Below, piece after piece: positions 19,852 through 40,133 of a stretch of DNA of 53,455 nucleotides. The notes beneath the pieces were generated by a model, which saw only the letters and a list, made by a program, of their open reading frames with translations, made no database searches and was not told the origin of the DNA. Numbering within the stretch: position 1 is the stretch's first letter; each line of letters starts with the position of its first letter. Source of the stretch: Candidatus Zhuqueibacterota bacterium. Its GTDB lineage: Bacteria > Zhuqueibacterota > Zhuqueibacteria > Residuimicrobiales > Krinioviventaceae. The position numbers were made by a program, and so were the translations under genes. Where the stretch lies: the NCBI GenBank assembly GCA_016934825.1, contig JAFGSB010000115.1, positions 1 to 53,455 on the forward strand, read 5' to 3'.

Positions 19852-21702
19852 ATGAAAAAATGGGGAATTTTTTGGACAGTTTTATTAGCAGCCGCAATTG
19901 TTTTTAATTTGCAGCCAGCATTTAGTTTGCTTTGCACAAGCGAAGATCCGTCTTCGCCGGTGGGTATTACACCATCAGAAGTTGCGGGCAATCCTGCTTT
20001 ATGCGCGGGCGGTTTACGAATCGATCCACCAGCCTCAGGTACTTACAATCTTGATGCATTTGGTAATACTGTAACTGTAACAATCTCCTCAAATGATTGC
20101 GGACAAGTCTTTAGTTGGAGCGCTTCCGGTAATATTGTTATGGATCATGTTATCGCCAAGGGTGGTAGTGCGGCTAATGATTATGACTATACAGGCTTAA
20201 ATCCCCGGCCAACATCCGATGGTTTACTTCACTCACCTGTAAATCCAAGCGGCTTTTATGCTAATCTAAGCCACATCGATTTTTGTTTTCATTACAGACT
20301 GACAATCAGCAAGACTGCTGAAACGTCATTCACCCGGACCTTTGACTGGACTATTGAGAAAGGCTGCAATGGACCCAATCCATTAACGCTCTCTGCCGGG
20401 CAAATATACAACTATCCATTTTCCTGGACAGTAAGTGCTACTTACGAAGACAGCGACTGGAAAGTTGAAGGGGTGATCACAATTGCAAATAACACACCGT
20501 ATTCTGCCACCATAAGCAGTATGATTGATGAACTCGACGGTATCACAATAACGGATTTCGGGATAACCATTCCATTCAATCTTGCGTCCGGTGAAACTCG
20601 CACTATTTCGTATTCGGCAAATCTGTCCGGCGCCGTGGACGGAACCAATGAGGTTACGGTTATTACAAGCACTCCTCTTGTGGAGGGAGGCAAAGCAACC
20701 AAATCCTATGCTTTTGGCGCGCCGACGACTTTAATAGATGAGTGCATTACTGTTTCCGACGACTGCGAAACCGACGTGCAAGTCTGCAATGCAGATCTTA
20801 CAGATGGTTCTTTTACACATAATTATACCTGCCCCATAGGACCTTATACCGCATGCGGTAATTATACCTATACAAACACGGCCGGATTTGTGAGCAATGA
20901 CAGGGGCATAACCGGCAGTGATAACTGTGTTGTTTCAGTCAACGTACCATGTACAGGCTGTACCCTCACTCCCGGCTACTGGAAGACCCATTCCTCTCAT
21001 GGCCCGGCGCCATATGATGATACCTGGGCGTTGTTGGGTGAAAGCACTATATTCTTTCTGAGCGGACAAAGCTATTACCAGGTATTGTGGACCAATCCTT
21101 CCGGCGGCAATGCCTATTACATTCTGGTACATGCCTATATAGCAGCAGAGTTGAATTTCCTGAACGGCGCCGATCCTACTGCCGCACAGGCCGCGTTCGA
21201 TGCGGCAACTGGTCTGTTCAACACATATACACCGGCAGAAGTTGCAAATATGAAAGGCAAAACCGGAAAAGATACCCGCGATCAATTCATCGCTCTGGCA
21301 AAAACGCTTGATAAATACAATAATGGTTTGATCGGTCCCGGACACTGCGACGAATCCGGCGGCGGTTTATCCAAGCAGGATCCGGAAATAGAAAGTCCCG
21401 ATATCGACGCGACAGAAGAAAAATCTTTCATTCCGGAAAGGTATGATCTGGCGCAGAACTACCCGAATCCCTTTAACCCCTCAACCACATTCTCCTTCGA
21501 TCTGCCCAAAGAAGGCGAAGTGACTCTGACCATATACAATCTTTCCGGTCAGAAAGTGGCCACAGTGGTGAATGGATTCTTTAGCGCAGGCAGGCATCAT
21601 GTCAACTGGCAGGCTGAGCAAAACATGGCCTCCGGTATGTACTTTTATCGTCTGCAGGCTGCCGGGTACGTCAGCGTCAGGAAGATGCTGCTTCTCGAAT
21701 AA
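19852..21702 (+). CDS. secreted protein with TPGYWKTH domain and C-terminal sorting domain
   Basis: The signal peptide is about residues 1-26. An N-terminal Cys-containing region is followed by a surface beta domain (about 150-290), with SKTAETSFTRTFDWTIEKG resembling DUF11-like adhesion repeats. Next come Cys-rich strands, then a TPGYWKTHSSHG module (about 370-515) found in many extracellular proteins. The C-terminal 90 residues are a type IX-style sorting domain: QNYPNPFNPSTTFSFDLP, VTLTIYNLSGQKV, HHVNWQAEQNMASGMYFYRL, ending in RKMLLLE. The protein is expected at the cell surface or released. AAGGAG precedes the start. A strong terminator follows. Its partner may be the lipoprotein just upstream. 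Confidence 0.75.
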   Translation: MKKWGIFWTVLLAAAIVFNLQPAFSLLCTSEDPSSPVGITPSEVAGNPALCAGGLRIDPPASGTYNLDAFGNTVTVTISSNDCGQVFSWSASGNIVMDHVIAKGGSAANDYDYTGLNPRPTSDGLLHSPVNPSGFYANLSHIDFCFHYRLTISKTAETSFTRTFDWTIEKGCNGPNPLTLSAGQIYNYPFSWTVSATYEDSDWKVEGVITIANNTPYSATISSMIDELDGITITDFGITIPFNLASGETRTISYSANLSGAVDGTNEVTVITSTPLVEGGKATKSYAFGAPTTLIDECITVSDDCETDVQVCNADLTDGSFTHNYTCPIGPYTACGNYTYTNTAGFVSNDRGITGSDNCVVSVNVPCTGCTLTPGYWKTHSSHGPAPYDDTWALLGESTIFFLSGQSYYQVLWTNPSGGNAYYILVHAYIAAELNFLNGADPTAAQAAFDAATGLFNTYTPAEVANMKGKTGKDTRDQFIALAKTLDKYNNGLIGPGHCDESGGGLSKQDPEIESPDIDATEEKSFIPERYDLAQNYPNPFNPSTTFSFDLPKEGEVTLTIYNLSGQKVATVVNGFFSAGRHHVNWQAEQNMASGMYFYRLQAAGYVSVRKMLLLE

Positions 21703-23013: not shown

Positions 23014-25236
23014 CTAATCCCGGATTAAACGAATAGAATAGCCGAACTGCTTATGCATGTAGATGCGCCAGACAATTGTTTCCTGGTGTCTCAGCCGTCG
23101 AAGCCATACGATATTATAACCGGCCGCTGTATCAGACCAAAAGTAAGCTAATGTACCCATACCCCAGAATGTACCACCGCGCTCGGCGCGATAACCGCCG
23201 GGTAATGCGGTGAAACCGCTTTCGTTGGTGGCGCCGATATTGGGGCTTGCCCAGTGCGCCGTTCCCCTCTCTTTTATTTTCCCACCGGCAACAGCATTAC
23301 CGCCGAGGTAATCTACCAATTTCTGCCATTCTTCATCGCCAGGTACATGCCAGCCTTCGGGAGCGATATTTCGACTGTCGTTTACTGCATACCAGTTATA
23401 TAATGGCCCATAAGAAGCGGCATAGCGACTGTCATTGTTATAATAACAATAAGCAGGCGTTGTCAAATCTGCCCATTCGATATAATTTAACACAAAGGGT
23501 ATAGCGTCGCCATTTCGATAATGTGTCACTTTTAAATTTTGCGCCATCCACCACTGGTCGCCAATTTTTACTGTTTTATAGATGTTACCATCGATGTCCG
23601 TGAGGGTTCCGGTTTCACGTACAATCACACTTACTTTAGCATGGGCTATTTTGCTTTTATAAGTTGCGGTAATGGTTTCCTGTCCGGTACGAGTATCGTG
23701 TGCGGTAAACCGGCCTGTGGCGTCGATACTCCCTGCAGTACCGGGAGATATGGACCATTTGGCTAAATTAGTCACATTTTGGGCACTTTGGTCTGAAAAT
23801 ATAGCGGTGCAGGTGAATCGTCCGGTTTCCCTGTTTCTCAAGGTATCGGATACGGGTGTGATCCTGATGTTGTTTAAAGCTGTTATGGAACCATCTTTTA
23901 CACAGCGAACCGAAAATCCCACCGGCTTATCACTGCTGAAACGGTCAACACCGGCATTAAAGTGGCGCAGCATGCGTATCCACACACTGGCACTATCGAT
24001 CTCAATAGAGGACCAAAAGGTGGCGTTGTCACCCAGGGTGACGTAAGCGCCGTTTTCACAGCGGCGGTAACCGCCGGGCAGCGCGGTAAAACCGCTTTCG
24101 TTGGTAGCGCCTGCATTGGGCACATTCCAGTGAAAAGTTCCTGCTTCTTTCAGCTTTCCGCCTTCCTTCGTACCTCGACCACTAATGCTGTCCGCCTCTG
24201 AAGGTCTCATGCCTAAATATATCTCCAATTGCTTCCATTCCTCATCCATGGGTACATGCCAGCCTTCGGGAGCTATGCTGCGGCTGTCGGCAATTGCGTA
24301 CCAGTTGTACAAAGCGCCATAGACTGCGGCATAACTGCTGTCATTATCATAATAACAACATGCACCGGTATTCAGTTTTGTCCACTCGTCATTATCCTTT
24401 ACGCTTGCTAAAACATCACCATTTTGGTAATGTGTCACTTTTAAATTCTCCGCCATCCACCACTGGTCGCCGATTTTAACAGTGCGGTAGATATTACCGT
24501 CAATATCCGTTACAGTACGGTAAACAGACACATCAACAACCATATTGCCGGTTATGTGCAGATTTTGCTGCTCCCAGGTTTCAATGTCAATGCCCGACAC
24601 CCGCAACAAAAAATTGTTTGACAGTGGTTTATTCAAATTATTTCCACTGGACGCATCATGACCTGTTTTTTGAGAAATTGCGATAATTGAACGACCACAG
24701 TGACCATCGAGCAGCAGCATTTTTTTGTTGATCCGGATACCCTCAGCAGTCAAGGAATAGATATACACTCCCGCCGAAACGGCCTGACCCGAGTCGTTTG
24801 TCCCATCCCAGATAACCCGGCCAAAAAGATTGGATTGAAATCCATCGTACAATGTTTTGATCCTTTGTCCCAATACATTATATATTTCAATACGAACATC
24901 CGCGGGATGTGGCAAATCATAAGTAATAACAGTTGAGGGATTGAACGGATTGGGATAATTTTGGAACAATTGAAAAGCGCCCGGTTTTTGAACTGAGACA
25001 TCGCCGATGGCTGTTTCGGTGATCTGAATAGTATAGTGGCCCTTTTCATCGGTCGTACTTCTGAATGAACGGCTGGTATCAGCCTGGTCTATTAACTCTA
25101 CCATGGCGTTTTGTACGGGCTCCGGGTCCATTCCCGCGGAAGTGACATTGCCCTGCAAAACAATTTGAGAAAACAGGCTCAAATTGAAAATCAATAGTAA
25201 TAATGCAATCCACATAAAACATTTTTGGACGAGCAT
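23014..25236 (-). CDS. exported protein with nested sorting domain and two FISUMP domains
   Basis: The preferred ATG (25236) has AAGGAG 5 nt upstream; a more distal ATG at 25254 lacks one. After a signal peptide, residues about 28-75 start a carboxypeptidase-regulatory-like domain (LQGNVTSAG to GHYTIQI). A type IX-style sorting/FlgD-like domain (88-178) follows: FQNYPNPFNPSTVITYDLP to INKKMLLLDG. Then come apparent closing strands of the first domain (LRVSGIDIETW). Two FISUMP domains follow (TDIDGNIYRTVKIGDQWWMA and its near copy), separated by a Big2-like Ig domain (FTCTAIFSDQS). The sorting domain is thus near the N-terminus. It is the last gene of the sigma/CHAT locus. Confidence 0.75.
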   Translation of the reverse strand: MLVQKCFMWIALLLLIFNLSLFSQIVLQGNVTSAGMDPEPVQNAMVELIDQADTSRSFRSTTDEKGHYTIQITETAIGDVSVQKPGAFQLFQNYPNPFNPSTVITYDLPHPADVRIEIYNVLGQRIKTLYDGFQSNLFGRVIWDGTNDSGQAVSAGVYIYSLTAEGIRINKKMLLLDGHCGRSIIAISQKTGHDASSGNNLNKPLSNNFLLRVSGIDIETWEQQNLHITGNMVVDVSVYRTVTDIDGNIYRTVKIGDQWWMAENLKVTHYQNGDVLASVKDNDEWTKLNTGACCYYDNDSSYAAVYGALYNWYAIADSRSIAPEGWHVPMDEEWKQLEIYLGMRPSEADSISGRGTKEGGKLKEAGTFHWNVPNAGATNESGFTALPGGYRRCENGAYVTLGDNATFWSSIEIDSASVWIRMLRHFNAGVDRFSSDKPVGFSVRCVKDGSITALNNIRITPVSDTLRNRETGRFTCTAIFSDQSAQNVTNLAKWSISPGTAGSIDATGRFTAHDTRTGQETITATYKSKIAHAKVSVIVRETGTLTDIDGNIYKTVKIGDQWWMAQNLKVTHYRNGDAIPFVLNYIEWADLTTPAYCYYNNDSRYAASYGPLYNWYAVNDSRNIAPEGWHVPGDEEWQKLVDYLGGNAVAGGKIKERGTAHWASPNIGATNESGFTALPGGYRAERGGTFWGMGTLAYFWSDTAAGYNIVWLRRLRHQETIVWRIYMHKQFGYSIRLIRD

Positions 25237-26476: not shown

Positions 26477-29356
26477 TCATTTTAAAAGAATACATTTTCT
26501 TGTCTGAACAAAATTTTCCGCCTCCAACTTTAAAAAATATATTCCGGCAGAATTTTCGGAGGCGTCCCATGTTATAGAATGATAACCTGCCTGCTTTTTC
26601 CCTGCAAAGAGCTCTGATACCAATTGACCATTTAAATTATATACTCCGATTGATACTGTGGTTGGTATTGGCAGATCATAACATATCCGCGTTGTGGGGT
26701 TAAATGGGTTCGGATAATTTTGCTTTAGACTAAAGTCCTTTGGCAGATGATCCTGGTTCATATTAATAGCACTACTTGAATAATAGCTCCCAACTTCGGC
26801 AACCTGATGAGTAATAATGATAGCCCCATTAAGCCCAATCTCTTCCGGCCCCCAAAAGGCAAATGTCGATACATCATAATACTTATTATCGTCTTCCGTA
26901 TTGGGTTCTCCCACTCCCTGGTATTTAATTCGTACAAGAATACCATCCTCATCTGTATTACTGGTCATTTCTTTTGTAGATGTAAAATTGTTCAATTTAA
27001 AATGCGCTCCGGCGTTGACAATTCCCCAATTCTTACCGGTTTTTATATCAATTTTATTTTCCCATCTTTGTGATCGTTTACAAGACTCATTTACACGGTT
27101 AGTTTTTCCCCATTCCTTTTCATAGGAAAGCATTGCTGTATTTATATTTTGTTCAAGCGTAGGAAATACTTTATCAAGATTATTATAGATAAAATATGGA
27201 TTTGAATTATTCATAAATGATACAACATTCCCATGAGTATGCAGCATAAAAGGCGACATAAAATTAACCAATGCATTTTTTTCCTCCGTTCCATATGACG
27301 CTTCGTATTCTGTTAAATAATTCTCCCAAGTCATCATCTGTAAATGTGTTCCGGCATCCCTGGGTTTGAGTATATAGAGAAATAATTCTTTGCCTTCATC
27401 AGATAAAATGGGTTCTCCTGTAAAGCTTTCTATCCTGAACGGGTAAATATCATATTTTGCTGTTGGAAAAATAACCTGAGTAACATTTTGATGACATTCC
27501 CAGTAATCAGTGTCAGAATTTCCTTCGTAATACTCTTTCTTATTCATTACGGTATCACGATAAGTCTTTTCGAATATAGTCTTTGTCCCCAGCCATTTTA
27601 CTCCCGCATTAATTTTGAAATTATAGCCATAACCGGTTTGAGTTTGAACGGAAGTAGAAGTATCATGCTCTGTGTTGAATTTAATATCAATTTGAGTAGC
27701 CGGATTTACCCCTTGCTGATAGGGCGGAGGATTTATTATTGCAACGGGTTTATTAACAAAAGGCGCAGTATTCAGGGAATCAAACATTCCAACTTTATAC
27801 CGGCACCAATAGGAATCATTATCAATGTCGACAGGAATAATTACCGGCCAGGTAAATCCATGATCGGAAGAGTCATAATTTCCCAGATATGACGATTTTT
27901 CCTCAATGGCTTTAAAGTCTTTTCTTGTCGTATCATAGACAACCGTGTACAGTTTCGGCATATCAGTGACAAAATAAATTTCACCATATTTATCGCTGTT
28001 CATATTGGTAATTGCCATGGAATGTTTCAGACCGGTATCCTCTATCTTGTCATTTAATTCTTCTTTCGCGACCAATCCTTCCATATCATCAAGTTCAAAT
28101 GTATAAAACCAATAATGCATACATGTTTTTGTCAATGTTTTATAAGTCAGACTTGCGGCGATGTCACAACACCCGTTATTATCCATATCTCCAACGTTTA
28201 GCTGCAAATTATCATAATCCGTATTTCTCTGGTCCCTTAAAGTAAAAAGTTGAGTGTTGTCCAGCAGCGAACCCTTCATGTTTTCAAATTCAATTTGATT
28301 CCATTCATCTTTTTCCGTATCATAGCTGAAAACCAGAATTTCAAAACCGCTTTTAAAATCATCCGGCGGAAAGCCCCCTTCATAATCAAGGCTTCTGAAT
28401 ACGACAACTTCATCTTTTCCATCATTATTTATATCACCCGACGAGATCCTGAACTTGTGCCTTGATCGAAAGATATCGGAAACTGATATAAAATCGTTGG
28501 CTGCTTTTTCCCATCTTTTGATGATCTGATATCCCGGCCAACCGAAAGGGAACGCGATTGAATTTTCTCCCTGTTTTGTCCAGTCAAATGCTCCGATTGA
28601 GATTTCTTCTATTGTAAATTGATTAGTCGGCGGAAAATTTCCCGTAAGGTAAGAAAAATATAATCCATGTGAAAAACAAACTTCATCGTAACCATCTCCA
28701 TCATAATCACAGACCACTGCATCTACAGGTGAAAAAAAGGTGCTGATAGGGGAAAATTGACAAGAGGATTTTTTTTCAAAAAAACGATGGATTTCTTCAT
28801 TGCCTGCTGATGAAAACCGGAAACCGTTCATCCTGATAAAGTTATCCTTATTTTTGAATTCATCCCATTGCGTGGCAATGACAACTTCTTTAAAATTTCC
28901 CTGTATTGCTTCAGGAGTAAAGTAACCGGAAACGATACAGGGATTGTATGCATCTGAAATTTTGCTGTTTAATGTCGTTACCTGCTCAATGCCGGTTTCG
29001 TTACAAATGGCATGCTGTAATGTTATTTCATTGCAGTTTTGAGATCCTATTATCAGCTCGATCGTTTCTTTGTTTGCATCGAAATTGCCGCTTGTGCCGC
29101 AAATTGCGTTGTAATCATTCAGCATACGTGTTACCATATGAGTGTTGTTTTCACAAAGATTATGGAATACAAAATTATCATTCACTAAATCCACACATTG
29201 AATATAAGGGGCGTTCCAATCGCTTTCTCCAATAAAAATAGTCAAAAGTTCATCATTTGGTAATCTAAAATCTTTAAATGGCGGCTCCTGCGAATGAGCC
29301 CAAAAGGCCAAACAGAAAAACAGGAACAAAAAAGAACAATATTCTTTCTTTTTCAT
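26477..29356 (-). CDS. secreted FG-GAP-like protein with C-terminal sorting domain
   Basis: A 959-aa protein with a signal peptide (FLFLFFCLAFWAHSQ) and a strong AGGAGG. The N-terminal half has FG-GAP/VCBS-like calcium-binding repeats: VVCDYDGDGYDEVCFSHG, SGDINNDGKDEVVVF, VGDMDNNGCCDIAASL and ITNMNSDKYGEIYFV, consistent with a beta-propeller. The middle (about 540-850) is unassigned and rich in Tyr, Asn and Thr. The last 85 residues are a canonical sorting domain: LKQNYPNPFNPTTRICYDLP, VSIGVYNLNGQLV, YHSITWDASENSAGIYFLKL and RKCILLK. It is expected to be exported across the outer membrane by a type IX-like system encoded elsewhere. Confidence 0.75.
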   Translation of the reverse strand: MKKKEYCSFLFLFFCLAFWAHSQEPPFKDFRLPNDELLTIFIGESDWNAPYIQCVDLVNDNFVFHNLCENNTHMVTRMLNDYNAICGTSGNFDANKETIELIIGSQNCNEITLQHAICNETGIEQVTTLNSKISDAYNPCIVSGYFTPEAIQGNFKEVVIATQWDEFKNKDNFIRMNGFRFSSAGNEEIHRFFEKKSSCQFSPISTFFSPVDAVVCDYDGDGYDEVCFSHGLYFSYLTGNFPPTNQFTIEEISIGAFDWTKQGENSIAFPFGWPGYQIIKRWEKAANDFISVSDIFRSRHKFRISSGDINNDGKDEVVVFRSLDYEGGFPPDDFKSGFEILVFSYDTEKDEWNQIEFENMKGSLLDNTQLFTLRDQRNTDYDNLQLNVGDMDNNGCCDIAASLTYKTLTKTCMHYWFYTFELDDMEGLVAKEELNDKIEDTGLKHSMAITNMNSDKYGEIYFVTDMPKLYTVVYDTTRKDFKAIEEKSSYLGNYDSSDHGFTWPVIIPVDIDNDSYWCRYKVGMFDSLNTAPFVNKPVAIINPPPYQQGVNPATQIDIKFNTEHDTSTSVQTQTGYGYNFKINAGVKWLGTKTIFEKTYRDTVMNKKEYYEGNSDTDYWECHQNVTQVIFPTAKYDIYPFRIESFTGEPILSDEGKELFLYILKPRDAGTHLQMMTWENYLTEYEASYGTEEKNALVNFMSPFMLHTHGNVVSFMNNSNPYFIYNNLDKVFPTLEQNINTAMLSYEKEWGKTNRVNESCKRSQRWENKIDIKTGKNWGIVNAGAHFKLNNFTSTKEMTSNTDEDGILVRIKYQGVGEPNTEDDNKYYDVSTFAFWGPEEIGLNGAIIITHQVAEVGSYYSSSAINMNQDHLPKDFSLKQNYPNPFNPTTRICYDLPIPTTVSIGVYNLNGQLVSELFAGKKQAGYHSITWDASENSAGIYFLKLEAENFVQTRKCILLK

Positions 29357-29506: not shown

Positions 29507-31906
29507 CTATTTAACCGTGATCTGCTCGTACCAGACCATTTCAGCGTCATTCGCCCCCGTAGCTACAATATCCATGTCGGAATCGCCATCCAAATCGATA
29601 ATCTCGACGCGGTGGGCATTATGCAATTCGTTATCGACAATATGCATGGACCAGTCGGGCGCCTTGAACCAGACGACGAAATGGGACGTTGAATCCGTCG
29701 CCACTACATCCAGCATCATGTCGTCGTTCATATCGGCGGCCTTCACATCGCAGGCATATTCCAGATTATTACTGATTACGTGTTTAGTCCAGGATGGCGC
29801 TTCATACCAGACCACATCTACTTCGCCGACGCCGGTGGCGAGCACATCCAGTTTTCCATCGGCATTGAGGTCAACAATATTCACATATTCGGCGCCGTTG
29901 AGATTATCATCGATATATATTTTATCCCAGTAAGGCGCCTTGTACCAGATCACGGCATTTGCTTCCATTCCTGTCGCAACAACATCAATATCAATGTCGC
30001 CGTCAAAATCAGTAACGCCCATATTCGCGGCGCCCGCCAGGCTGTCGTCGATGATGTGAATTGTCCAGTCCGGGTATTCATACCAGACCAGCATATCGTT
30101 GTCATGACCGGTGACCACCACATCCGGATCGCGGTCGGCATTCATGTCTGCAACACATAAATCATAGGGATTTGTTATATTTTTTTTATAATCGATATAA
30201 TGTACTCCTCGCCAATCAGGGAAAACGATTCCAAAGGCTTCATAATCATACCTTTCAACCCAGATTACGGCCCACTCTGCATAACCTGTCATAACAACAT
30301 CCAGATCATCATCCTTATCCATGTCGGCAACTTCTATATCAGAACGAGGGAATACCGGTGGTGCGGGGTACCAACTAAAAACCTCGAACCAATCAGATGC
30401 AATAAAGTAACTGAGGTAAGAACTTCTTTGATTATTCTGTTCTAATCCGGCCCTAAATACGATATCCGGATTTTCATCATTATCCCACATGACCAGTTTA
30501 AAATCATAATAATTATCCCAGCAATAACAATTAATTTCATGTTTGATCCACTGTGTCTCCAAACCCGCGTATTCCGGGCCGGTTGTAAATGTGGCCAAAA
30601 ACGGATTTTCAAGATGATTACCGTTTATATCAGCAATTTCCGTTGTGAGTTTGATCGTATAGACCGTATTCGGATCAAGCGGCTGATCCGGTGTGAAGGT
30701 AATACACGTATTGTCTTCAATGAATCCAATTGAACCGGACACATAACCGGCCGCATTGAACAGGGTAAAGCTATTAACGTTCACCGTTACGCTGTTTATC
30801 GGCTCGGTGAACCTGATAATAATAATTGAGTCGATTATGATGTCCTTGTCACCGTTTGTGGGTGCGGAGGAGGTGATTTTGGGGGGTACATTATCAACAA
30901 TATTAAACGAACTTTGTATAAATTCTCCCATATATGTAGACATTTGTACTGTTAGGCAATCGCCTGTTGCTGCTTCAAGTTCCAACAAAGGAAAACTGCC
31001 GTCATAATAAACCTGTGCGCTGGTCATTTTCCCGGTATTATTATTTAAAACAGTAATATTATCCAGCCCACAGGTCGTATCGATCACTGTTCCGGCCAAA
31101 CCGCTGACGTATACCTGTCCCGAATCACCCGGATCGGATATATGAATCAGCTCCTCATTAAATAAAGAGGTCTCTTTTTGAACGACATGAATATCAAAGT
31201 TTACGTCATTTGATGAAATAGTAATATGCTTTTTTTCAAATATGTTTATTCTTTGACCGGTTGCGCGGATGGTCACAGTCATCGTATTCGGTTTATTTAA
31301 AGTATTATTATGATTCTCCTGTTTTTGTATTTGTGTTTTGTAATGAAATGAGGCATGACCCGCACCGTACCCGTCAATCAACGTCATTTTCCGGGTTTGC
31401 ATGTAGTCACCGGCCCGTAATTGGTAAAAATAGATGCCGGCGGCCACGCCGTTACCGTTTCCATCGGTCGCGTCCCAGGCTACTGTATAATGTCCCTGTG
31501 CATATCTACCGTCAACCAGAGTTTTGATCTTTTGACCCAGGGTGTTGTAAACAACAAGCTGGATGTGTTCGGCCCTGGGAATCTGGAAATTGATGAGCGT
31601 AGAGGGATTGAAAGGATTGGGATAATTTTGTTCCAGTTTGAATTCAGCCGGTTTATGATCCTGCGGAACGGATTTGACCGCGGTCGCCAGATTGAGCACA
31701 TACCTGCCGGTTATATCAGTTTTACCGGAACATTTTTGAGCCGGATCGGCTTCGTTGATCACTTCAACCATAACATTGGCAACTCCTTTTCCATTACTCA
31801 TATCGGTTACATAACCGTGGAAACAAATTTCATTCAAATCCTGCGTGAAAAGACAGGTATTGATTATGAATAAAAAAGCCGATAGAAATAAAATTATTTT
31901 TTTCAT
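29507..31906 (-). CDS. exported FG-GAP protein with nested N-terminal sorting domain
   Basis: The signal peptide covers residues 1-21. A carboxypeptidase-regulatory-like segment (ICFHGYVTDMSNGKGVANVM to GRYVLNL) is followed by a sorting/FlgD-like domain at 89-179 (LEQNYPNPFNPSTLINFQIP to TRKMTLIDG), then VTIRATGQRINIF and VNFDIHVVQ strands. Next is a Big_5 Ig-like domain (PPKITSSAPTNGDKDI to FLATFTTG) and about six FG-GAP/VCBS repeats with DxDxDxD-type loops (VADMDKDDDLDVVMTG, VTDFDGDIDIDVVATG, IIDLDGDSDMDIVATG). The start is 20 nt after the CHAT gene, with GAGG as ribosome-binding site, so it is surely in the same operon. It is a plausible direct client of the CHAT protein. Confidence 0.8.
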   Translation of the reverse strand: MKKIILFLSAFLFIINTCLFTQDLNEICFHGYVTDMSNGKGVANVMVEVINEADPAQKCSGKTDITGRYVLNLATAVKSVPQDHKPAEFKLEQNYPNPFNPSTLINFQIPRAEHIQLVVYNTLGQKIKTLVDGRYAQGHYTVAWDATDGNGNGVAAGIYFYQLRAGDYMQTRKMTLIDGYGAGHASFHYKTQIQKQENHNNTLNKPNTMTVTIRATGQRINIFEKKHITISSNDVNFDIHVVQKETSLFNEELIHISDPGDSGQVYVSGLAGTVIDTTCGLDNITVLNNNTGKMTSAQVYYDGSFPLLELEAATGDCLTVQMSTYMGEFIQSSFNIVDNVPPKITSSAPTNGDKDIIIDSIIIIRFTEPINSVTVNVNSFTLFNAAGYVSGSIGFIEDNTCITFTPDQPLDPNTVYTIKLTTEIADINGNHLENPFLATFTTGPEYAGLETQWIKHEINCYCWDNYYDFKLVMWDNDENPDIVFRAGLEQNNQRSSYLSYFIASDWFEVFSWYPAPPVFPRSDIEVADMDKDDDLDVVMTGYAEWAVIWVERYDYEAFGIVFPDWRGVHYIDYKKNITNPYDLCVADMNADRDPDVVVTGHDNDMLVWYEYPDWTIHIIDDSLAGAANMGVTDFDGDIDIDVVATGMEANAVIWYKAPYWDKIYIDDNLNGAEYVNIVDLNADGKLDVLATGVGEVDVVWYEAPSWTKHVISNNLEYACDVKAADMNDDMMLDVVATDSTSHFVVWFKAPDWSMHIVDNELHNAHRVEIIDLDGDSDMDIVATGANDAEMVWYEQITVK

Positions 31907-31926
31907 ACATGCCTCTATTGATTAAC

Positions 31927-34900
31927 TCAAGTCCCGATTAAAACAAATGAAGCCCAAAAGTATGGGTGAGCAAAAAAATGTTTTTTATTTTTTGATAATG
32001 AATTTTTCAACATTTCTCTCTGGGTCAATGTTAACGCCTCAGCTTTATTTTTAGTTTTTAAATGCTGATAAAAATTGTTCATAAATAAAGATGTAGACTG
32101 ATCATGAATTTTCCATAAACTGGCAATAACGCAGGGGGAACCGGCGTATAAAAACGCGCTGGAAAGACTGACAAGATCATCACCCTGTGGAAAGCTGGAA
32201 AAAAAGCCGCTTCCGATTGCCGTTTGACAGGCGCTTAAGGTGACAAGAAGCGCCGTCAGGTCCAGATCAAATATCTCGTGAACCTCAAGCTGGCCGTCAT
32301 CGGATTCGGATTTGGCCAGATCAAGACTGGAAAATAAGGGATTGAACCTGTTAAAATGTGCTGTCGTGGCAAAATGTAATAAATCGTATTTTTTTCCACT
32401 CTTCTTGACCAGGGATTCGGTGGCCTGTTCATCCAGTTTATAGTCTGCGATATTTCCGTATATGTTTTTAATTTCCAGTATTTCATCTTTTGACATTGGA
32501 AGAGAGCTGCTATTCGGCGCCAGCAGGAGCAAAGAACGCATAACATCCGATCTTTTTTCTTTGCAGTATTTGAGTATACTGGCAGAAGGCGCATAAGAAA
32601 TGATGTAATCTTGGACCAAATAATGGACATTTTTCAGAACATTTTTTTCCAGTTCATATTCACTGATCAACGCCTGAAAAGGTAAATGATATAAAATTCC
32701 CTGAGGTATAATGATCAATCGTTTCATATGTGCGAGATGCCCTGCTTTTTCAACAGGGGATATAAGTGTTTCGTATAGTTCTTTTAATGGTTTCAACCAG
32801 TAAGTGTTTGTTATTTTTTCCGGATTCATGTTCCGCGTAGCTATCCCTCGGAACAGGATGATCTTGCCGTACAGGTCTTCCCTGGTTACGGGACGCCTTA
32901 ACACTTTAACATTATTTCTTGTCAATATAAAAATGAATAAATCATTTTCCGTTATAAAATACTCCAATAATGCAGAATCATTATCCAGTAATTGTCTGAT
33001 TTGTGGTGCGGCGGCGGGTTCAATATTGACAAGAGCGGCATGTTGGGGATCAGATAATTTTAAATCGAAAAGAGTTTGCCGGTATTCCTCTTGTGTTTTG
33101 TGTAATTCGGAAATAATTATTCTTTTGGCGTTATCGCGAGTTTCCAGGTTTTGAAACCTGTTATTTCCATATATCCTGTCTTTCAGGTTCGTTATTTTAG
33201 TCCGTAATTCATGTTCTTTATTTAAAAGAGACGCGTTTTTGTTGGTTTTATTTATTTTATTATTACCAATAATGTCCAACAGATTTCTTGAACGGGTATG
33301 TTCCACATATTCTAGGGCTTCTTCATATTTTCCCATATGTACGAGTAATGAAATAATGGCTTCGTAGGGTTTATATCGTTTTGACAAAACACCTGATTTT
33401 ATCTCATCCACATAAGACTTGTTACGTATTCGTTCAATTGCATCGATTGCGGCTTTGTAAGAAGTGATTGCTCTGCCGTTTTCGCCCTGTTGTTCCCAGA
33501 GTTTCCCGTTCCCATAATATAATTGCCATTTTAAGTCAAGATCATCAAATTCATCAATAATTGCCAGCCCCTGTTCATAAGCGCCTGAAGCTCTTTGAGT
33601 TTCAAAATGGTCACAGTAAAAATCCCCCAATAATTGTAAAAGCCATGCCTGAAATCTTTTTTCACCAATTTCCTCAGCAATATTCCGGGCCTCAAACCAG
33701 CAATTTATTGTTTTGCTCGAGTCTTGCATTTGATCATAAATATTTCCCAGCCTGATCAGTGTTAAACATTCATTTCTTTTTTCACCGGATTCGGTAAATA
33801 TTTTCAGTGAGTTTGTTGCGTGCTCTTTGGCATTTTTTATATCCCCCTTTGTTAAATATATCTGGCTCATTTCAAGTTGTGCGACAGCAATACCGTTTTT
33901 ATTTCCGATCTGTTTTTGTAATGCCAATGACTTTTCCAGATTTGACAACGCATTGTTATGATCGCCTATATTGGTATAAACTTCCCCGAGAGCTTCCAGC
34001 CAGTAAGCGGCTCCCCGCAAATGGCCGATCTCTTCATGCAGCCCCAGGGCTTTTTGATAATTAATGATTGCTCTGGTGTAGTCACCCCTGTATGAACAGA
34101 CTTTAGCGATTCGCGCATACTGATACGCTTCGCCCTCTTTATAGTCAAGTGTTTTGTGAATCTCCAATGCTTTATTGAAATATAAATGCGCATTGTTGAA
34201 ATCCCCCAGATTCATATATACAATACCGAGATTACCGAAATCGTTTCCCAATCCTTTTTTATCCCCGGTTTCCTGGCGTATTGATATTGTCTCTTCATAT
34301 AAGGAAATGGATTTCGCAAAATCGCCCAGATTCAAATATACATTTGCCATATTTCCAAGATTTTTACCCGAACTGCGAATATTGTTTATGCTTTTGTTGA
34401 TAACGTAAGAGGAATCGTAATGGGACAACGCTTTTCTATATTCACCCATTTCTTCATAAACCAGGCCCGAATTGTTCAGATCGGCCGCCAGCCCCCGCAT
34501 ATCATCAAGTTCTTTTCTGATCTGTATCGCTTTCTTATAATACTTTAACGCCATTGGATAATCACTTTTATCGCTGTATACGGTTGCAATATTACCCAGC
34601 CTGTTGCCGACACGTCGATTATCTCCCAGTTTTTCATGCATCATCAAAGATCTTTTATAATAATCCAGCGCTTTGTCGAACTCGCCAAGATAAAAATAAG
34701 CGGAACCAATACTACCGGTCAGAGCGGCAATTTCATCCGTATCATCAATTTCCTGAGCCAGATTATACGCCCTTTCAAATATTGACAAAGCGTTCAGAAA
34801 ATTTCCACCATAAAATTCAGATTTACCTCTTTGTTTCAAGTGGATGATTTCTGATTTTTTTTCAAGAGCTGTTCCGGTAAATTGCGTGTAACTTTTTACC

Positions 34901-35232
34901 CGGTTATGATAATATTCATCATTAAAAATTTGTGAGTAAATATCTGCAATTGTTTTGGCCATTTGTTTATCAGTGTAGGCTCCGGTAGTATTTTTGCGAG
35001 CACTTTTCACAATCGATGAATCCAGTAACGCTTCTATCAAACGGATTGCTTCAGACCTGTCCGACTGAATTATCCCGGTTAAATTTTCCGTATTATTGTT
35101 CTGTATTGATTGTTTCACCCGGTTGGGGAAATCGGCAGGTGTCTGTGATCCGGCGGGGATTAAAATACTCAAAATAATTAAAAAATAGACTGCCAAAAGG
35201 ATTTTGTTAAAAAAAGCAGTGTTTTTAAACAT
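31927..35232 (-). CDS. exported TPR-CHAT protein, putative caspase-like protease
   Basis: A hydrophobic N-terminal segment (ILLAVYFLIILSILIPAGS) is a signal peptide or anchor. About a dozen kinesin-light-chain-like TPRs of 40 residues follow (roughly 130-640, for example GEFDKALDYYKRSLMMHEKLGD). A coiled linker then leads to a C-terminal CHAT domain (about 780-1101). The catalytic Cys is Cys1002 in VTLSACQTAIGS, and GDDLVSLSSAFLYAGSPCVIASLW is the typical following helix. The usual A-T-H-G/A motif reads A-T-T-A-H-F, so the expected His position is Thr957 and a His lies at 959. The start has AGAGG, and the gene is 9 nt after the anti-sigma gene. CHAT proteins cleave protein targets when their sensor domain is triggered. 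Confidence 0.88.
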   Translation of the reverse strand: MFKNTAFFNKILLAVYFLIILSILIPAGSQTPADFPNRVKQSIQNNNTENLTGIIQSDRSEAIRLIEALLDSSIVKSARKNTTGAYTDKQMAKTIADIYSQIFNDEYYHNRVKSYTQFTGTALEKKSEIIHLKQRGKSEFYGGNFLNALSIFERAYNLAQEIDDTDEIAALTGSIGSAYFYLGEFDKALDYYKRSLMMHEKLGDNRRVGNRLGNIATVYSDKSDYPMALKYYKKAIQIRKELDDMRGLAADLNNSGLVYEEMGEYRKALSHYDSSYVINKSINNIRSSGKNLGNMANVYLNLGDFAKSISLYEETISIRQETGDKKGLGNDFGNLGIVYMNLGDFNNAHLYFNKALEIHKTLDYKEGEAYQYARIAKVCSYRGDYTRAIINYQKALGLHEEIGHLRGAAYWLEALGEVYTNIGDHNNALSNLEKSLALQKQIGNKNGIAVAQLEMSQIYLTKGDIKNAKEHATNSLKIFTESGEKRNECLTLIRLGNIYDQMQDSSKTINCWFEARNIAEEIGEKRFQAWLLQLLGDFYCDHFETQRASGAYEQGLAIIDEFDDLDLKWQLYYGNGKLWEQQGENGRAITSYKAAIDAIERIRNKSYVDEIKSGVLSKRYKPYEAIISLLVHMGKYEEALEYVEHTRSRNLLDIIGNNKINKTNKNASLLNKEHELRTKITNLKDRIYGNNRFQNLETRDNAKRIIISELHKTQEEYRQTLFDLKLSDPQHAALVNIEPAAAPQIRQLLDNDSALLEYFITENDLFIFILTRNNVKVLRRPVTREDLYGKIILFRGIATRNMNPEKITNTYWLKPLKELYETLISPVEKAGHLAHMKRLIIIPQGILYHLPFQALISEYELEKNVLKNVHYLVQDYIISYAPSASILKYCKEKRSDVMRSLLLLAPNSSSLPMSKDEILEIKNIYGNIADYKLDEQATESLVKKSGKKYDLLHFATTAHFNRFNPLFSSLDLAKSESDDGQLEVHEIFDLDLTALLVTLSACQTAIGSGFFSSFPQGDDLVSLSSAFLYAGSPCVIASLWKIHDQSTSLFMNNFYQHLKTKNKAEALTLTQREMLKNSLSKNKKHFFAHPYFWASFVLIGT

Positions 35233-35241
35233 AATATACCT

Positions 35242-36102
35242 CTATTTTTTTTCGTATTTGAAAAAAAACATATCAGAAGTAATCGTAGCGCCGTTTTTTG
35301 TTAAACCTTCAATTTGCCAAAAATAATTAGTTTTGGGAACAAGCTTTATATTTTCCGGTAGTTTTAATTTATTTTTGGATGTTTTCTGGTTCATTATAAT
35401 ATGTCCGTCTGAATCAAGCAGCAGAAAAACATAATTTTTTATATCCGGCGAATCCTGCCATTGAAATTTGAAATTATTATTTCCCACAGTACAATTATTT
35501 TTTGGCGATATTAACTTAATCTCCGGGACTATATATTGTTCCGTTGATTCGCGAGTAACGAACGGATTAAAAGTGCTGATATCCGATTGAACCAGAACCA
35601 TACATAAAACAATTATTATTACCGCAAGACCGGCCCACCTGTAACCCGGTTGCGGTTTTGTCAACCTGTCAAATAATGATTTTACACCGGTAACAAAATC
35701 CTTAGCATGTGAAGAAATGAAATCATAAATATGTTCCCTGATATCATTTTTACCAATTAATCTTTCGCTTTTCAATTCGTGCAGATATTCTTCAATGATT
35801 ATTAATTTGGACAAGCATAATTCACATTGACTGAGATGGGTAAAATATTGTTTTTTCCTTTTGCCGCTGAAATGGCCTGTTAGATATGCAATGTGATCAT
35901 TTTCATCGTAGCATTGTTTTGTTGGAGTTGAGTCCCCAATTTGCTGTGTGGAAAGTATTGAGCCATAAAACCTTTTGAACAATAAGAGTTTGTTCTTGCA
36001 TTGTTGACATTCCTGCAAATGTTTTTGAATTTCTTTGTTTTCTTTGTCAATCAATGTTCTATTACAATAATCAAATATCTGTTTTATATTTAGACATTTC
36101 AT
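35242..36102 (-). CDS. anti-sigma factor with two zinc-finger motifs
   Basis: Two ZAS-like HxxxCxxC motifs are present: H28-x3-C32-x2-C35 (HLQECQQC) and H89-x3-C93-x2-C96 (HLSQCELC). A single transmembrane helix (WAGLAVIIIVLCMVLVQS, about 156-173) precedes a periplasmic domain of about 110 residues that resembles a fibronectin-like sandwich (YIVPEIKLISPKNN, FKFQWQDSPDIKNYVFLLLD). This is the topology of membrane anti-sigma factors. I chose the internal ATG at 36102, preceded by GGAG at 9 nt, over an ATG at 36117. It lies 114 nt after the sigma factor and 9 nt before the CHAT gene. The periplasmic part could sense envelope signals or be cleaved. Confidence 0.8.
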   Translation of the reverse strand: MKCLNIKQIFDYCNRTLIDKENKEIQKHLQECQQCKNKLLLFKRFYGSILSTQQIGDSTPTKQCYDENDHIAYLTGHFSGKRKKQYFTHLSQCELCLSKLIIIEEYLHELKSERLIGKNDIREHIYDFISSHAKDFVTGVKSLFDRLTKPQPGYRWAGLAVIIIVLCMVLVQSDISTFNPFVTRESTEQYIVPEIKLISPKNNCTVGNNNFKFQWQDSPDIKNYVFLLLDSDGHIIMNQKTSKNKLKLPENIKLVPKTNYFWQIEGLTKNGATITSDMFFFKYEKK

Positions 36103-36216
36103 AATATTTATCTCCATTATTGTTATATTATATAATAACGGACACGCAATCCTCTTTTTGCATTTTTTTTGGTTTTAAATTGGATAATAAAGACCGGGTA
36201 GTCGGCTTTAAGAGAA

Positions 36217-37068
36217 TTATTTCAGAATATTTTCGATATCGGAAGAATCAATGCTATAAGATTCAAGTTCTCTTTTTATTTTGGCCAGCAGTTTCTTTAA
36301 CAGCCGATGTACTCTCCAGATATTTTTGATTTTTAATATTCTGGCGATTTGTTCCAGTGTCAGTCCCCGGTAAAAATAAAGATTAAGCAGTAAATTTTCA
36401 TTTACGGTCAGTCCGGCAATAATTTTTTTATAGATATTTTTTATATCATCCGAAATGATCAGACTGTCAGGTTGATCGGCCTGCAGTTTTTGTTCTTTAC
36501 CGGACAAGGTTCCCTGCGAAGCAGGTTTTACATCTTTATCATTTATTAAGAATATTTGAGGGTTATTATGTATTAAAGGGCTTTTTGTCTTTTTTACCAG
36601 GGTTGTAATTTTATCTATATGCGAGACTATTTCTTCCGGGGTGATAGTATGTTCATAATTTGTTGTTATGATTTCGTAGATAGTTTTATCGGAGTAATGA
36701 AACCAGAATTTGTATTTATAAATCAATTGGTCAAGCAGGGGTAGCTCTTTAATGTTTCCGCTTACCCTTTTTCTGCCATGTTGTTTTCTCAACCAGTCGA
36801 TACAGCAGTTTCTGATAGTGACAGCAAGCCACGGTTCAAATCTATATTGCCGTTTACTTTTATAATATGTGATTATTCTGGAATAATTGTCCCTTTTTAA
36901 TTTTTCCAGGATATAGGTATACATATCCATCATGGCGTCATAATCAAAAGCGTATTTTTTGATGATCGCCATGAAGAGATCATTATAACATTCAAGAAAA
37001 TGTTTCCAGCCTTTTTCGGGATTTTGTTTTAAACATTTCTCCCAATTTTGTTTAGCTTTTTGAAACAA
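36217..37068 (-). CDS. ECF-like RNA polymerase sigma factor
   Basis: Region 2 is seen at about residues 20-100 (ECYNDLFMAIIKKYAFDY, then EPWLAVTIRNCCIDWLRKQHGRKR, the sigma2.3-2.4 -10 contact helix). Region 4 is at about 225-270: LNLYFYRGLTLEQIARILKI, then WRVHRLLKKLLAKIKREL, a helix-turn-helix for -35 recognition. Between them lies about 110 residues, much longer than in typical ECF factors of 160-200 aa. The start is a TTG with AGAGGGG 4 nt upstream; the next ATG would remove part of region 2. It heads the sigma/anti-sigma/CHAT locus and probably drives it in an autoregulated way. Confidence 0.82.
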   Translation of the reverse strand: MFQKAKQNWEKCLKQNPEKGWKHFLECYNDLFMAIIKKYAFDYDAMMDMYTYILEKLKRDNYSRIITYYKSKRQYRFEPWLAVTIRNCCIDWLRKQHGRKRVSGNIKELPLLDQLIYKYKFWFHYSDKTIYEIITTNYEHTITPEEIVSHIDKITTLVKKTKSPLIHNNPQIFLINDKDVKPASQGTLSGKEQKLQADQPDSLIISDDIKNIYKKIIAGLTVNENLLLNLYFYRGLTLEQIARILKIKNIWRVHRLLKKLLAKIKRELESYSIDSSDIENILK

Positions 37069-37565: not shown

Positions 37566-39980
37566 TTACTGTTTCTTTGGCTTTTTCGGCGCTTCCAAAA
37601 CCTGGCCGGCCTGGTGCAGGGTGAGGGAGGTCACGTTACCGTTTTCGTCTTTGTTAAAAACAACCTGCGCGTTGACAACCTTGAAGAAAAATTCGGTTTC
37701 GGAACTGGGAAACATTTCGAATTTGGGTTGTCCGGTCGCCTGGTTAAAGATTTTGTCTCCTTCTTTGGTAATTGTGAGGATAAAATCGGGCATTAGTTCG
37801 TATTCGCCGACATAGGCGTCGTAAACGGCCGGATCGACCAGCACGGCGGTTTTTCCCACATATCTGGACGCCCTGATCTCCCGACCACCCTGGTGGTGAA
37901 TGACGTTATTCACCTGTCCGTCCTCATCCCGGACAAATGTAATCTGCGCGTCCACAACTTTCCAGAAAAACTCGGTTTCGGAGCGTGGGAATATCTGTAA
38001 TTTCCCCTGGCCGGTAAATTGCGCGAACAGTTTACCATCCTGAGTGGTGATGTCCATAATACCCTGGCCGTAATCGTAACGGCCGACATAATCCTTAAAG
38101 ACGGACGGATCTACAGAGGTATCCTCCGCCAGCGTTTTTTGCTGTTCAAGCTGTTTCCAGAAATAGATTTCGGCAATCTGTCGGGCGGCGTCCTCGGTGC
38201 CGAAACCTGGCGGCAGCGGCACACTATTACACAGGACCACAACGGTGGCGTTAATATCCGGGAGACGGGTCAGATAGGAACTGAAACCATGCAGGCCGCC
38301 GCCATGTGCGATTTCCCGTAAGCCGCGAAAATCCACGAACGCCCAGCCGTAACCGTATTTGCCCATATCCTGCGGTTCCGTGCCGTCATTCAGTTTCACC
38401 GGCGTTAATGCCGCCTGCAGGGAGGATTCCTGCAATACTTTGCCGTTAAAAATGCTCTCGTTCCATTTGTACAGGTCGCCGACTGTGGAGTACAGGTTAC
38501 CCGCGCCCCCGGCCCAGGACATGTCCCAGTTCAGCGATCTTTTGTAGGCATCGTTTTCATAAGAATAGCCGATTGCTTCATGCGGCAGTTCTATGTCTTT
38601 ATAGTGTACGCCGGTGTTTGTCATGCCGAGCGGTCCGAAAAAGTTTTGCTGCAGAAAATCATTATAGGACATACCGGAAATCTGTTCAATCAGATAACCC
38701 AAAATAAAATAACCGGAATTGTTGTACAACCATTTTTCACCGGGATCAAAGTCGTATTTGTCTTTCTTAATCAATTCAATCAATTCATCCGGTTGTACGG
38801 TTTTTTCAACTTTTTTAATAAAATCGGGTGTTGACGTATAACTGTGAATCCCCGATGTGTGGGTGAGCAGATGGTGGATGGTCACCTCGTCGCCGCGCGG
38901 GAAATCCGGAATATATTTGGAGAGTTTGTCCTGAACGCTGATCTTGCCCTGTTCCTGGAGTTTCAGGATCGCGGCGGCGGTAAACTGTTTGGTTATGGAA
39001 CCGATGCGAAACTGCGTCTCGGGAGTGACCGGAATTTTCTCCTCCGTATTTTGATTGCCGTAGCCTTTTTCAAATACGATCTTTCCATCTTTTGCCACAA
39101 GCACCGCGGCGCCAGGGGTTTTATCATTAAATACGTTGGTGAAAACAAGATCTGTCAGTGTTTCATTATCGGGAAAGGGAATATATGTATCCGCGCCATG
39201 ATCCTCAAGTATTTGCAGAATTTCCGTACGCCCCTTGATTTGCGCGAATTGATAGGGGGTCAGCCCGTTTTTGCTTTTAAGGTTGACATTTGCGCCATAT
39301 TCGATCAGCATATTCACATCGTCGATTTGTCCCATTGCCGCAGCGTACATCAGTTTTTCAGATTTTGCGGTATCGCCCATAATTCGGCAGGCAAAGCCCC
39401 AGCTATATTGCATGTTCTGAATTTTGAGTAACAGCCGGTTTTTCCCTTTTTTCAGGGTAACGGGGACTATATCATCGTCAATATTCACCGCCCGGCCTAT
39501 CCAGTTTTCGTGAACCAGTTCGCCGTTGAGCCAAACTTTGAGACCATCGTCACTGCCGATGCCGAACAAAATTTTCGTGGTTTCCGGTATGTTTATTTCG
39601 GCATAGGCATAAACGACAACATATTCTTTTTCGCCGTACCTTTTTACCAGATCGACAATATTCTCTTTCGAGTTGAGAAGAGTCCAGTTCGAAACGAGGT
39701 TTTTCCCCGGTTCGGAAATATCAATCGACGCCTCTCCGCCATACGCCGACAACAGATCTTTATCGAATCTTTTTTTCTGGGCTTCATCGTCCCTTTCTTC
39801 CAATGTATCTTTAAAAACGGGGATCGGTCCAGCAACCATCCACGAGGTCATAAATTCATCCGGCTGAGGATTATTATAAATAGCCGGATTATCAGGACCG
39901 GCAAAGATCGTAATATTCAGCAGCAGCGTTAAACAGAGAACCATCAGGCGGAGTATCCGATAATTGTTTGATGTAAACAT
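37566..39980 (-). CDS. secreted class C beta-lactamase-fold hydrolase with ankyrin repeats
   Basis: Starting at the ATG preceded by AGGAG (39980; a longer frame opens at 40058), the protein has a signal peptide (LRLMVLCLTLLLNITIFA). A jelly-roll-like domain (about 40-200, with ILFGIGSDDGLKVWLNGELV, as in PA14/GH2-type modules) and two ankyrin repeats (about 206-268) follow. Next is a serine beta-lactamase/DD-peptidase domain: S328-x-x-K331 (GSITK), Y419-N-N421 (YNN), and H559-G-G (HGGGLHG). Finally there are two tandem DUF3471-like domains (YVGRYDYGQG and YVGEYELMPD). The catalytic triad motifs are intact. Likely a periplasmic or surface esterase/peptidase. No transporter or regulator is adjacent. 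Confidence 0.85.
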   Translation of the reverse strand: MFTSNNYRILRLMVLCLTLLLNITIFAGPDNPAIYNNPQPDEFMTSWMVAGPIPVFKDTLEERDDEAQKKRFDKDLLSAYGGEASIDISEPGKNLVSNWTLLNSKENIVDLVKRYGEKEYVVVYAYAEINIPETTKILFGIGSDDGLKVWLNGELVHENWIGRAVNIDDDIVPVTLKKGKNRLLLKIQNMQYSWGFACRIMGDTAKSEKLMYAAAMGQIDDVNMLIEYGANVNLKSKNGLTPYQFAQIKGRTEILQILEDHGADTYIPFPDNETLTDLVFTNVFNDKTPGAAVLVAKDGKIVFEKGYGNQNTEEKIPVTPETQFRIGSITKQFTAAAILKLQEQGKISVQDKLSKYIPDFPRGDEVTIHHLLTHTSGIHSYTSTPDFIKKVEKTVQPDELIELIKKDKYDFDPGEKWLYNNSGYFILGYLIEQISGMSYNDFLQQNFFGPLGMTNTGVHYKDIELPHEAIGYSYENDAYKRSLNWDMSWAGGAGNLYSTVGDLYKWNESIFNGKVLQESSLQAALTPVKLNDGTEPQDMGKYGYGWAFVDFRGLREIAHGGGLHGFSSYLTRLPDINATVVVLCNSVPLPPGFGTEDAARQIAEIYFWKQLEQQKTLAEDTSVDPSVFKDYVGRYDYGQGIMDITTQDGKLFAQFTGQGKLQIFPRSETEFFWKVVDAQITFVRDEDGQVNNVIHHQGGREIRASRYVGKTAVLVDPAVYDAYVGEYELMPDFILTITKEGDKIFNQATGQPKFEMFPSSETEFFFKVVNAQVVFNKDENGNVTSLTLHQAGQVLEAPKKPKKQ

Positions 39981-40133
39981 AGAGACTCCTGATTTAAATA
40001 TAATGTATATAATGGATTTAAAAGTATTTACGATAAAGACCGGAATAGGTTTCCCCAATTGTAAAAATTTTAATATTTAATACGGAACAGTCCCATTCAA
40101 ATTAGGAGTTAGGGACGAAAAAAAGCCGGGGAT

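Follow-up and report, generated by a model that had tools for sequence, protein, structure and literature searches.

A sorting-type domain nested in an N-terminal carboxypeptidase-regulatory-like domain: a candidate variant of the T9SS type A tag

What does a T9SS sorting-type domain do when it lies directly behind the signal peptide of a protein, inside another domain, rather than at the C-terminus? According to passages in PMC10202324, PMC5445135 and PMC12618676, T9SS substrates are selected by their C-terminal domain, and in open-access full text we found no description of an internal or N-terminal T9SS sorting domain. Two proteins encoded in the window (the whole stretch of DNA that was analysed, 53,455 nucleotides) have such an arrangement and raise the questions (i) whether the parts on either side of the sorting-type domain belong to one interrupted domain; (ii) how widely the arrangement occurs; and (iii) whether it might serve in export, in attachment or in neither.

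The nested module of the two window proteins

P0001 (ORF 31906-29507, minus strand, 799 aa) and P0002 (ORF 25254-23014, minus strand, 746 aa, likely start 25236) are 33% identical across about 248 residues (E 2e-36) and have no significant similarity outside this region. Common to both, behind the signal peptide, is one module of about 250 residues, in which the first strands of a carboxypeptidase-regulatory-like (CpdR) domain are followed by a T9SS type A sorting domain, a linker and the closing CpdR strands. All parts described here are on the minus strand. In P0001, a signal peptide of approximately residues 1-22 (31841..31906), read from the sequence by its hydrophobic core and TQ/D end, precedes the first CpdR half (residues 27-76, 31679..31828), which corresponds to positions 3-46 of the 82 of the CarboxypepD_reg profile and forms strands in the model. 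The inserted sorting-type domain runs from NYPNPFNPST to KMTLIDG (residues 86-179, 31370..31651; assigned by TIGR04183 and a PorU-like model), and is followed by a variable linker (residues 180-206, 31289..31369) of low model confidence and poor conservation and by the CpdR closing half (residues 207-243, 31178..31288), which was delimited by structural alignment to carboxypeptidase D and by the splice test described below. In P0002 the corresponding parts are the signal peptide (25168..25236, with an LFS/Q site read from the sequence), the first CpdR half (25009..25164; profile positions 2-55 of 82), the inserted domain, from NYPNPFNPST to KMLLLDG (about residues 91-184, 24703..24984; TIGR04183 and a PorU-like model), and the closing half, from FLLRVSG to VDVSVY (24514..24618; a splice match reaching position 77 of 82 and the empty-site alignment).

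The payloads are unlike: P0001 continues with a Big_5 domain (residues 338-442) and FG-GAP repeats (29510..30895; Pfam 65.1 and 46.1 bits), while P0002 has two Fib_succ_major (FISUMP) domains (23896-24480 and 23020-23571; profile matches totalling 325 bits in two stretches) with a weak Big_2 between them, the whole payload spanning 23020..24480. Two further window proteins, at 26477-29356 and 19852-21702, carry an ordinary C-terminal sorting domain.

Both inserts exceed the curated cut-off of TIGR04183 (T9SS type A; 32.3 bits in P0001 and 29.9 in P0002, cut-off 23). PF18962 (Por_Secre_tail) stays below its cut-off of 27 in both window proteins (20.1 and 18.8 bits), and four of eight other module proteins scanned pass it. 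FlgD_ig is likewise over its cut-off of 27 in both (34.1 and 34.5 bits), while the FlgD equivalog model lies far below its cut-off of 230 (24.0 and 23.4 bits). On the intact proteins CarboxypepD_reg (PF13620) reached 25.2 and 26.6 bits, below the cut-off of 32.3, and matched the first half only. When the insert was left out, the match grew from about 45 to 72-81 of the 82 profile positions in four of five modules and scored 2.6 to 6.8 bits higher than with just the first half; one of the five spliced modules passed the PF13620 cut-off, and the fifth, from a GH30 protein, showed no extension and lost 2.5 bits.

An AlphaFold2 model of the P0001 module, made from a 19-row alignment of 7 modules and 12 C-terminal domains, has a mean pLDDT of 75 and a pTM of 0.45, with the strands of flanks and insert well predicted and the linkers weak. 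In a VIA-align comparison, residues 5..223 of this model aligned over 80 residues (rmsd 2.1, Z 9.8) with one unbroken stretch of carboxypeptidase D, in its transthyretin-like domain (1qmu), and residues 3..226 matched the N-terminal extension of a SusC (9hfj; Z 9.2). The initial annotation had proposed structure prediction as a check on whether the flanks are independent domains; since the insert is skipped in the alignments to 1qmu and 9hfj, the flanks of P0001 are best described as one domain. Within the insert, residues 74..157 of the model align with the C-terminal domain of PorU (6za2; Z 8.8) and residues 78..150 with FlgD (3osv; Z 8.7). In the P0002 model (pLDDT 73, pTM 0.45), residues 64..155 have the PorU C-terminal domain as their best match (Z 11.0, 90 aligned residues, rmsd 2.2), and the insert also matches the mirolase tag (Z 9.3); these P0002 matches bear on the insert, the structural evidence for a transthyretin-like flank coming from the P0001 model. 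A Foldseek search by itself found nothing at E 0.001.

Additional evidence comes from a relative with an empty site. L243, from genome G015, has a CpdR domain of the module subfamily that lacks the insert, followed by a FISUMP domain; in its alignment with module protein L145 (69% identity), YSIQIST and QYKLQVTG mark clean boundaries on either side of the insert. We consider it near certain that the module is one transthyretin-like CpdR domain interrupted by an Ig-like sorting-type domain. Two claims made from the DNA letters thereby held: that a sorting-type domain is nested in an N-terminal CpdR domain, which agrees with the P0001 model, four of the five spliced profile matches and L243, and that the closing CpdR strands follow the insert, which agrees with the P0001 structural alignment, the splice test and the L243 alignment.

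Unlike module proteins, L243 starts with a lipobox (LSGC). Among 82 genomes of the window's phylum, no second empty site of the L243 subfamily was found, the remaining rows of the search being partial matches, mainly the two halves of known modules. In a tree of the flanks, L243 branches within the FISUMP-module group at modest support values (80/86, not starred), a placement that disfavours the empty site as the ancestral state; because of this nesting, the sequences suggest that the insert was probably lost in the L243 lineage. A lipoprotein in another genome (L322, 4008-4967, plus strand; G062) has a seemingly uninterrupted CpdR-like stretch before a FISUMP-type end.

Spread, position and motifs of the modules

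The 5.4-Mb source genome has five whole-module matches, with scores of 309-492 bits, and the next match scores 121 bits; the other 145 of the 150 listed matches consist essentially of the sorting domain only. With 150 of 253 candidates scored, the genome has at least five modules. The initial annotation had described the module as shared by two proteins of different content; the 33% identity and differing payloads agree with this, but two was too low a number.

At E 1e-42, 21 of the 82 genomes searched in the window's phylum had matches and represent 18 of 59 genera, although two of the 21 (G060 and G064) match by the sorting domain only; the module profile gave 40 full modules in a first set of loci. 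Matches were also present in at least 13 of 199 genomes of the phylum of a Neomarinimicrobiota locus and in at least 18 of 197 genomes of the class of an Ignavibacteriales locus (Ignavibacteria), both counts being lower bounds with 14 candidates scored per genome. Altogether, the collected loci from the window's phylum, Neomarinimicrobiota and Ignavibacteria contain 73 distinct modules, an affirmative outcome for the proposed search for further proteins with this domain order. This number, spread over many genomes, and the score gap in the source genome rule out chance or an assembly artefact. FISUMP domains are the payload in 30 module proteins (census of the window's phylum) and a GH30 glycosidase in 22 (PF02055 was matched in three of eight proteins scanned); other payloads comprise Big_5 with FG-GAP or other repeats, as well as regions without assignment.

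We then classified by position all sorting domains above 25 bits in loci L006-L110, the window, L141-L175, L194-L298 and L299-L318: 229 are C-terminal, 73 lie in a full module, 8 are cut by a contig end and 3 lie elsewhere, a ratio that describes loci picked by module queries and is not a genome-wide estimate. The three remaining cases are L055, a C-terminal domain whose last loop is longer, L086, where the first ORF runs into unread bases, and L278, a frame-shifted module. No second, C-terminal sorting domain was found in any of the 67 module proteins with a complete end. A scattered ordinary Ig linker, which the initial annotation had named as the reading that would undo its proposal, is not supported, as within these query-chosen loci the sorting-type domains are either C-terminal or in the module. 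Set aside before counting were the frame-shifted L278, a 192-aa piece in L172, a second piece in L170 and the truncated L310.

When 36 inserted and 75 C-terminal domains are placed in one tree, the position label needs 8 changes, as compared with 30.5 when labels are shuffled, and none of 500 shuffles gave a number as low. This is a quick tree with few supported forks, and a single insertion and many insertions are both compatible with it. Two loci deserve separate mention. In L278 (4374-5742, minus strand; G041) a FISUMP module gene is split by a frameshift, which may be real decay or a sequencing error. L175 (3130-3771, minus strand; G066) encodes a 214-aa protein in which the first half of a module is followed by a sorting domain whose end coincides with the stop codon; this domain groups with the C-terminal domain of a neighbour (99*), as if swapped between positions.

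The motifs of the sorting domain are largely retained in the modules. The G-x-Y motif is present in all 73, and 70 of the 73 have K/R-M in the last strand. The final residue is K or R in 133 of 154 C-terminal sorting domains; in a regular-expression reading, none of the 70 readable modules has a basic counterpart of this residue, and 39 modules have D in its place, usually as D-G. According to a passage of the review PMC5445135, the motifs with the highest conservation lie within the last 22 residues, a stretch that it calls sufficient for secretion in P. gingivalis. The tag of PorZ, as described in part of PMC5121618, tolerates a C-terminal extension, yet altering its native end blocked secretion; for this reason a functional internal sorting domain is possible but not assured.

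Modules, lipid anchors and C-terminal tags

A census of 123 FISUMP ORFs comprised 30 with the module, 2 with a C-terminal sorting domain, 1 with a frame-shifted module and 90 others. Under a first, looser lipobox rule, 7 of the 30 module proteins were flagged, along with 35 others. The rule was changed after this result had been seen, and the revised version adds a polar stretch after the cysteine, a condition set because the cysteines first flagged were part of the hydrophobic core and preceded an FSQ/FAQ-type site. Under the revised rule, none of the 29 module proteins with a recognisable signal is predicted to have a lipobox, as opposed to 33 of 71 others (Fisher 8e-7). C-terminal tags are absent from all 30 FISUMP module proteins and present in 2 of the remaining 93 (p 1), so that their absence says little here.

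The GH30 proteins gave a second comparison, for which the revised rule was left unchanged. Close relatives (score above 200) include 22 module proteins, 6 lipoproteins without module (L300-L304 and L311) and 2 proteins with a C-terminal sorting domain (L306 and L309); L299, whose module is cut by a contig end, and L310, which is truncated, are incomplete. Three distant GH30 proteins (L305, L307 and L308), which were left out of the tree, are C-terminally tagged as well. A lipobox was predicted in 1 of the 22 module proteins (L313, an ambiguous case) and in 6 of the 9 others (Fisher 7e-4). No GH30 protein combines two of these devices, the exception being the L313 module protein, whose signal was flagged as a possible lipobox. 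Well-supported branches of the GH30 tree imply that presence of the C-terminal tag changed at least twice and that of the module at least three times. Genome G341 encodes a module GH30 protein and a C-terminally tagged one about 8 kb apart on one contig.

Because module, lipobox and C-terminal tag interchange in this way, the plain reading of the comparison is that the module would do the job of a lipid anchor or of a C-terminal tag.

Possible roles of the module

The source genome encodes a PorU (893 bits, cut-off 420; a second gene scores 673), a SprA and 27 PorV-family matches. SprA_N is present in 19 of 20 genomes examined, the one without a match (G014) being 84% complete, and the PorV family in all 20, with 9-44 matches per genome. 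The presence of the machinery permits, and does not prove, T9SS export of the module proteins. In F. johnsoniae, according to a passage of PMC12618676, PorV collects type A tags; the 27 PorV-family matches of the source genome, which stand beside at least 150 sorting-domain matches, represent an expansion of this shuttle or anchor family far beyond the single PorV described for type A tags in that species.

The boldest reading, to which we assign a probability of roughly 0.4, is that the nested, N-terminal and uncleavable sorting domain may represent a second conserved class of T9SS signal, which would bring proteins to the surface and keep them there with the C-terminus of the payload free, and which is traded in evolution with lipidation and C-terminal tags. 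Our main reading, which we judge to be evenly balanced, is that the module works as a T9SS tag in an N-terminal version that probably stays uncleaved and presumably serves export. A T9SS type A-like domain would have entered one loop of a CpdR domain that immediately follows a Sec signal peptide, the resulting nested unit now moving as an N-terminal module. Following Sec export, the protein would fold in the periplasm, and the T9SS translocon, together with a PorV-type shuttle, would recognise the Ig-like insert in the same way as a C-terminal tag. The insert would then remain on the surface as an uncleaved means of attachment, comparable to the tags that PorU and PorZ keep. Since both ends of the insert return into the CpdR domain, the payload cannot be released by cutting the insert off; the closed CpdR domain may form a collar, from which the FISUMP, GH30 or Ig/FG-GAP payload would face outward with its C-terminus free.

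Known systems resemble the module in part. With the T9SS type A tag (TIGR04183/PF18962) it shares a TIGR04183 score over the cut-off, the Ig-like fold and the last-strand motifs; unlike that tag, it is N-terminal and nested in a host domain, and the terminal K/R is replaced, often by D-G. We call it a variant, and not a member, because it lies away from the C-terminus and the terminal basic residue is missing. PorU and PorZ (group III, with the tag kept), according to published descriptions, retain the tag without cleavage, which is what the nested place would impose on the module, and the P0002 insert has its best structural match in the C-terminal domain of PorU; their tag, however, is C-terminal. 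Other CpdR or transthyretin-like domains (PF13620; the SusC N-terminal extension and carboxypeptidase D) have the same fold, as seen with 1qmu and 9hfj, but the copy in the module is interrupted by a whole second domain. FISUMP lipoproteins have a payload domain in common with module proteins and occur in the same genomes, with a lipid anchor where the latter have the module. The hook cap protein FlgD (FlgD_ig) has an Ig-like domain related by profile and fold, which is likewise inserted into a small beta domain; the host is Tudor-like in FlgD rather than CpdR, and the module, unlike FlgD, comes with a signal peptide and exported payloads.

The likeness to FlgD leads to the main rival, a structural adaptor, which the initial annotation had also considered and which we regard as unlikely. 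The Ig-like domain would have been recruited as a spacer or binding surface and have lost its sorting role, the proteins being periplasmic or exported by another path. Such an adaptor would fit the FlgD_ig scores, which are as good as those of the sorting models, the presence of FlgD among the structural matches and the absence of the chain end that known tags need. However, it offers no reason for the trading against lipoboxes and C-terminal tags or for confinement to one place beside the signal peptide, and the last two strands are still conserved. The interchange favours instead the second export route, also among the roles first suggested.

We think it improbable that the module is a T9SS-independent surface anchor, which would reach the surface by another outer-membrane route and dock to a PorV-family barrel or another envelope partner. 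The abundance of PorV-family matches, both in the source genome and across the 20 genomes, would suit this, and in P. gingivalis, as a passage of PMC7712824 describes, PorA, which carries such a domain and binds to PorV, gets to the surface independently of the translocon; the occurrence of SprA in nearly all genomes examined argues against it. Least probable is a cleavable lid, as named in the initial annotation, or pro-domain, in which a cut made once the protein has been exported, either within the linker or beyond the closing strands, would liberate or activate the payload. In its favour, the linker that follows the insert varies and is predicted with low confidence, and in three genomes the gene of an exported TPR-CHAT peptidase stands ahead of a P0001-type gene. 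Against it, the closing strands of the interrupted domain would still carry the payload after a cut in the linker, which makes a second cut necessary; CHAT matches were found in 3 of 41 loci scanned (L031, L160 and L184, from two genomes), and nothing supports the lid directly.

If the internal N-terminal copy works as a sorting signal, (i) recognition would read the folded domain and not the chain end; (ii) uncleaved attachment would be common rather than peculiar to PorU and PorZ; and (iii) secretome predictions that consider only the C-terminus would overlook one class of surface protein across several phyla. The empty site of L243 and the GH30 proteins with their three interchangeable localisation devices provide ready matched constructs for testing.

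The surroundings of P0001 (window 29507-37068, minus strand) encode a sigma-70-type factor, an anti-sigma-like protein, an exported TPR-CHAT protein and the module protein. This gene order recurs in two other genomes (L319/L160 in G062 and L320 in G085), with identities of about 36% for the sigma factor, 32-35% for the anti-sigma-like protein, 45-47% for the CHAT protein and 38-43% for the module protein. The PorU sortase and CHAT peptidases belong to one clan, and it is conceivable that these genes form a surface-signalling circuit. Elsewhere in the window, 37566-40058 (minus strand) encodes a serine hydrolase of the beta-lactamase family with ankyrin repeats and DUF3471.
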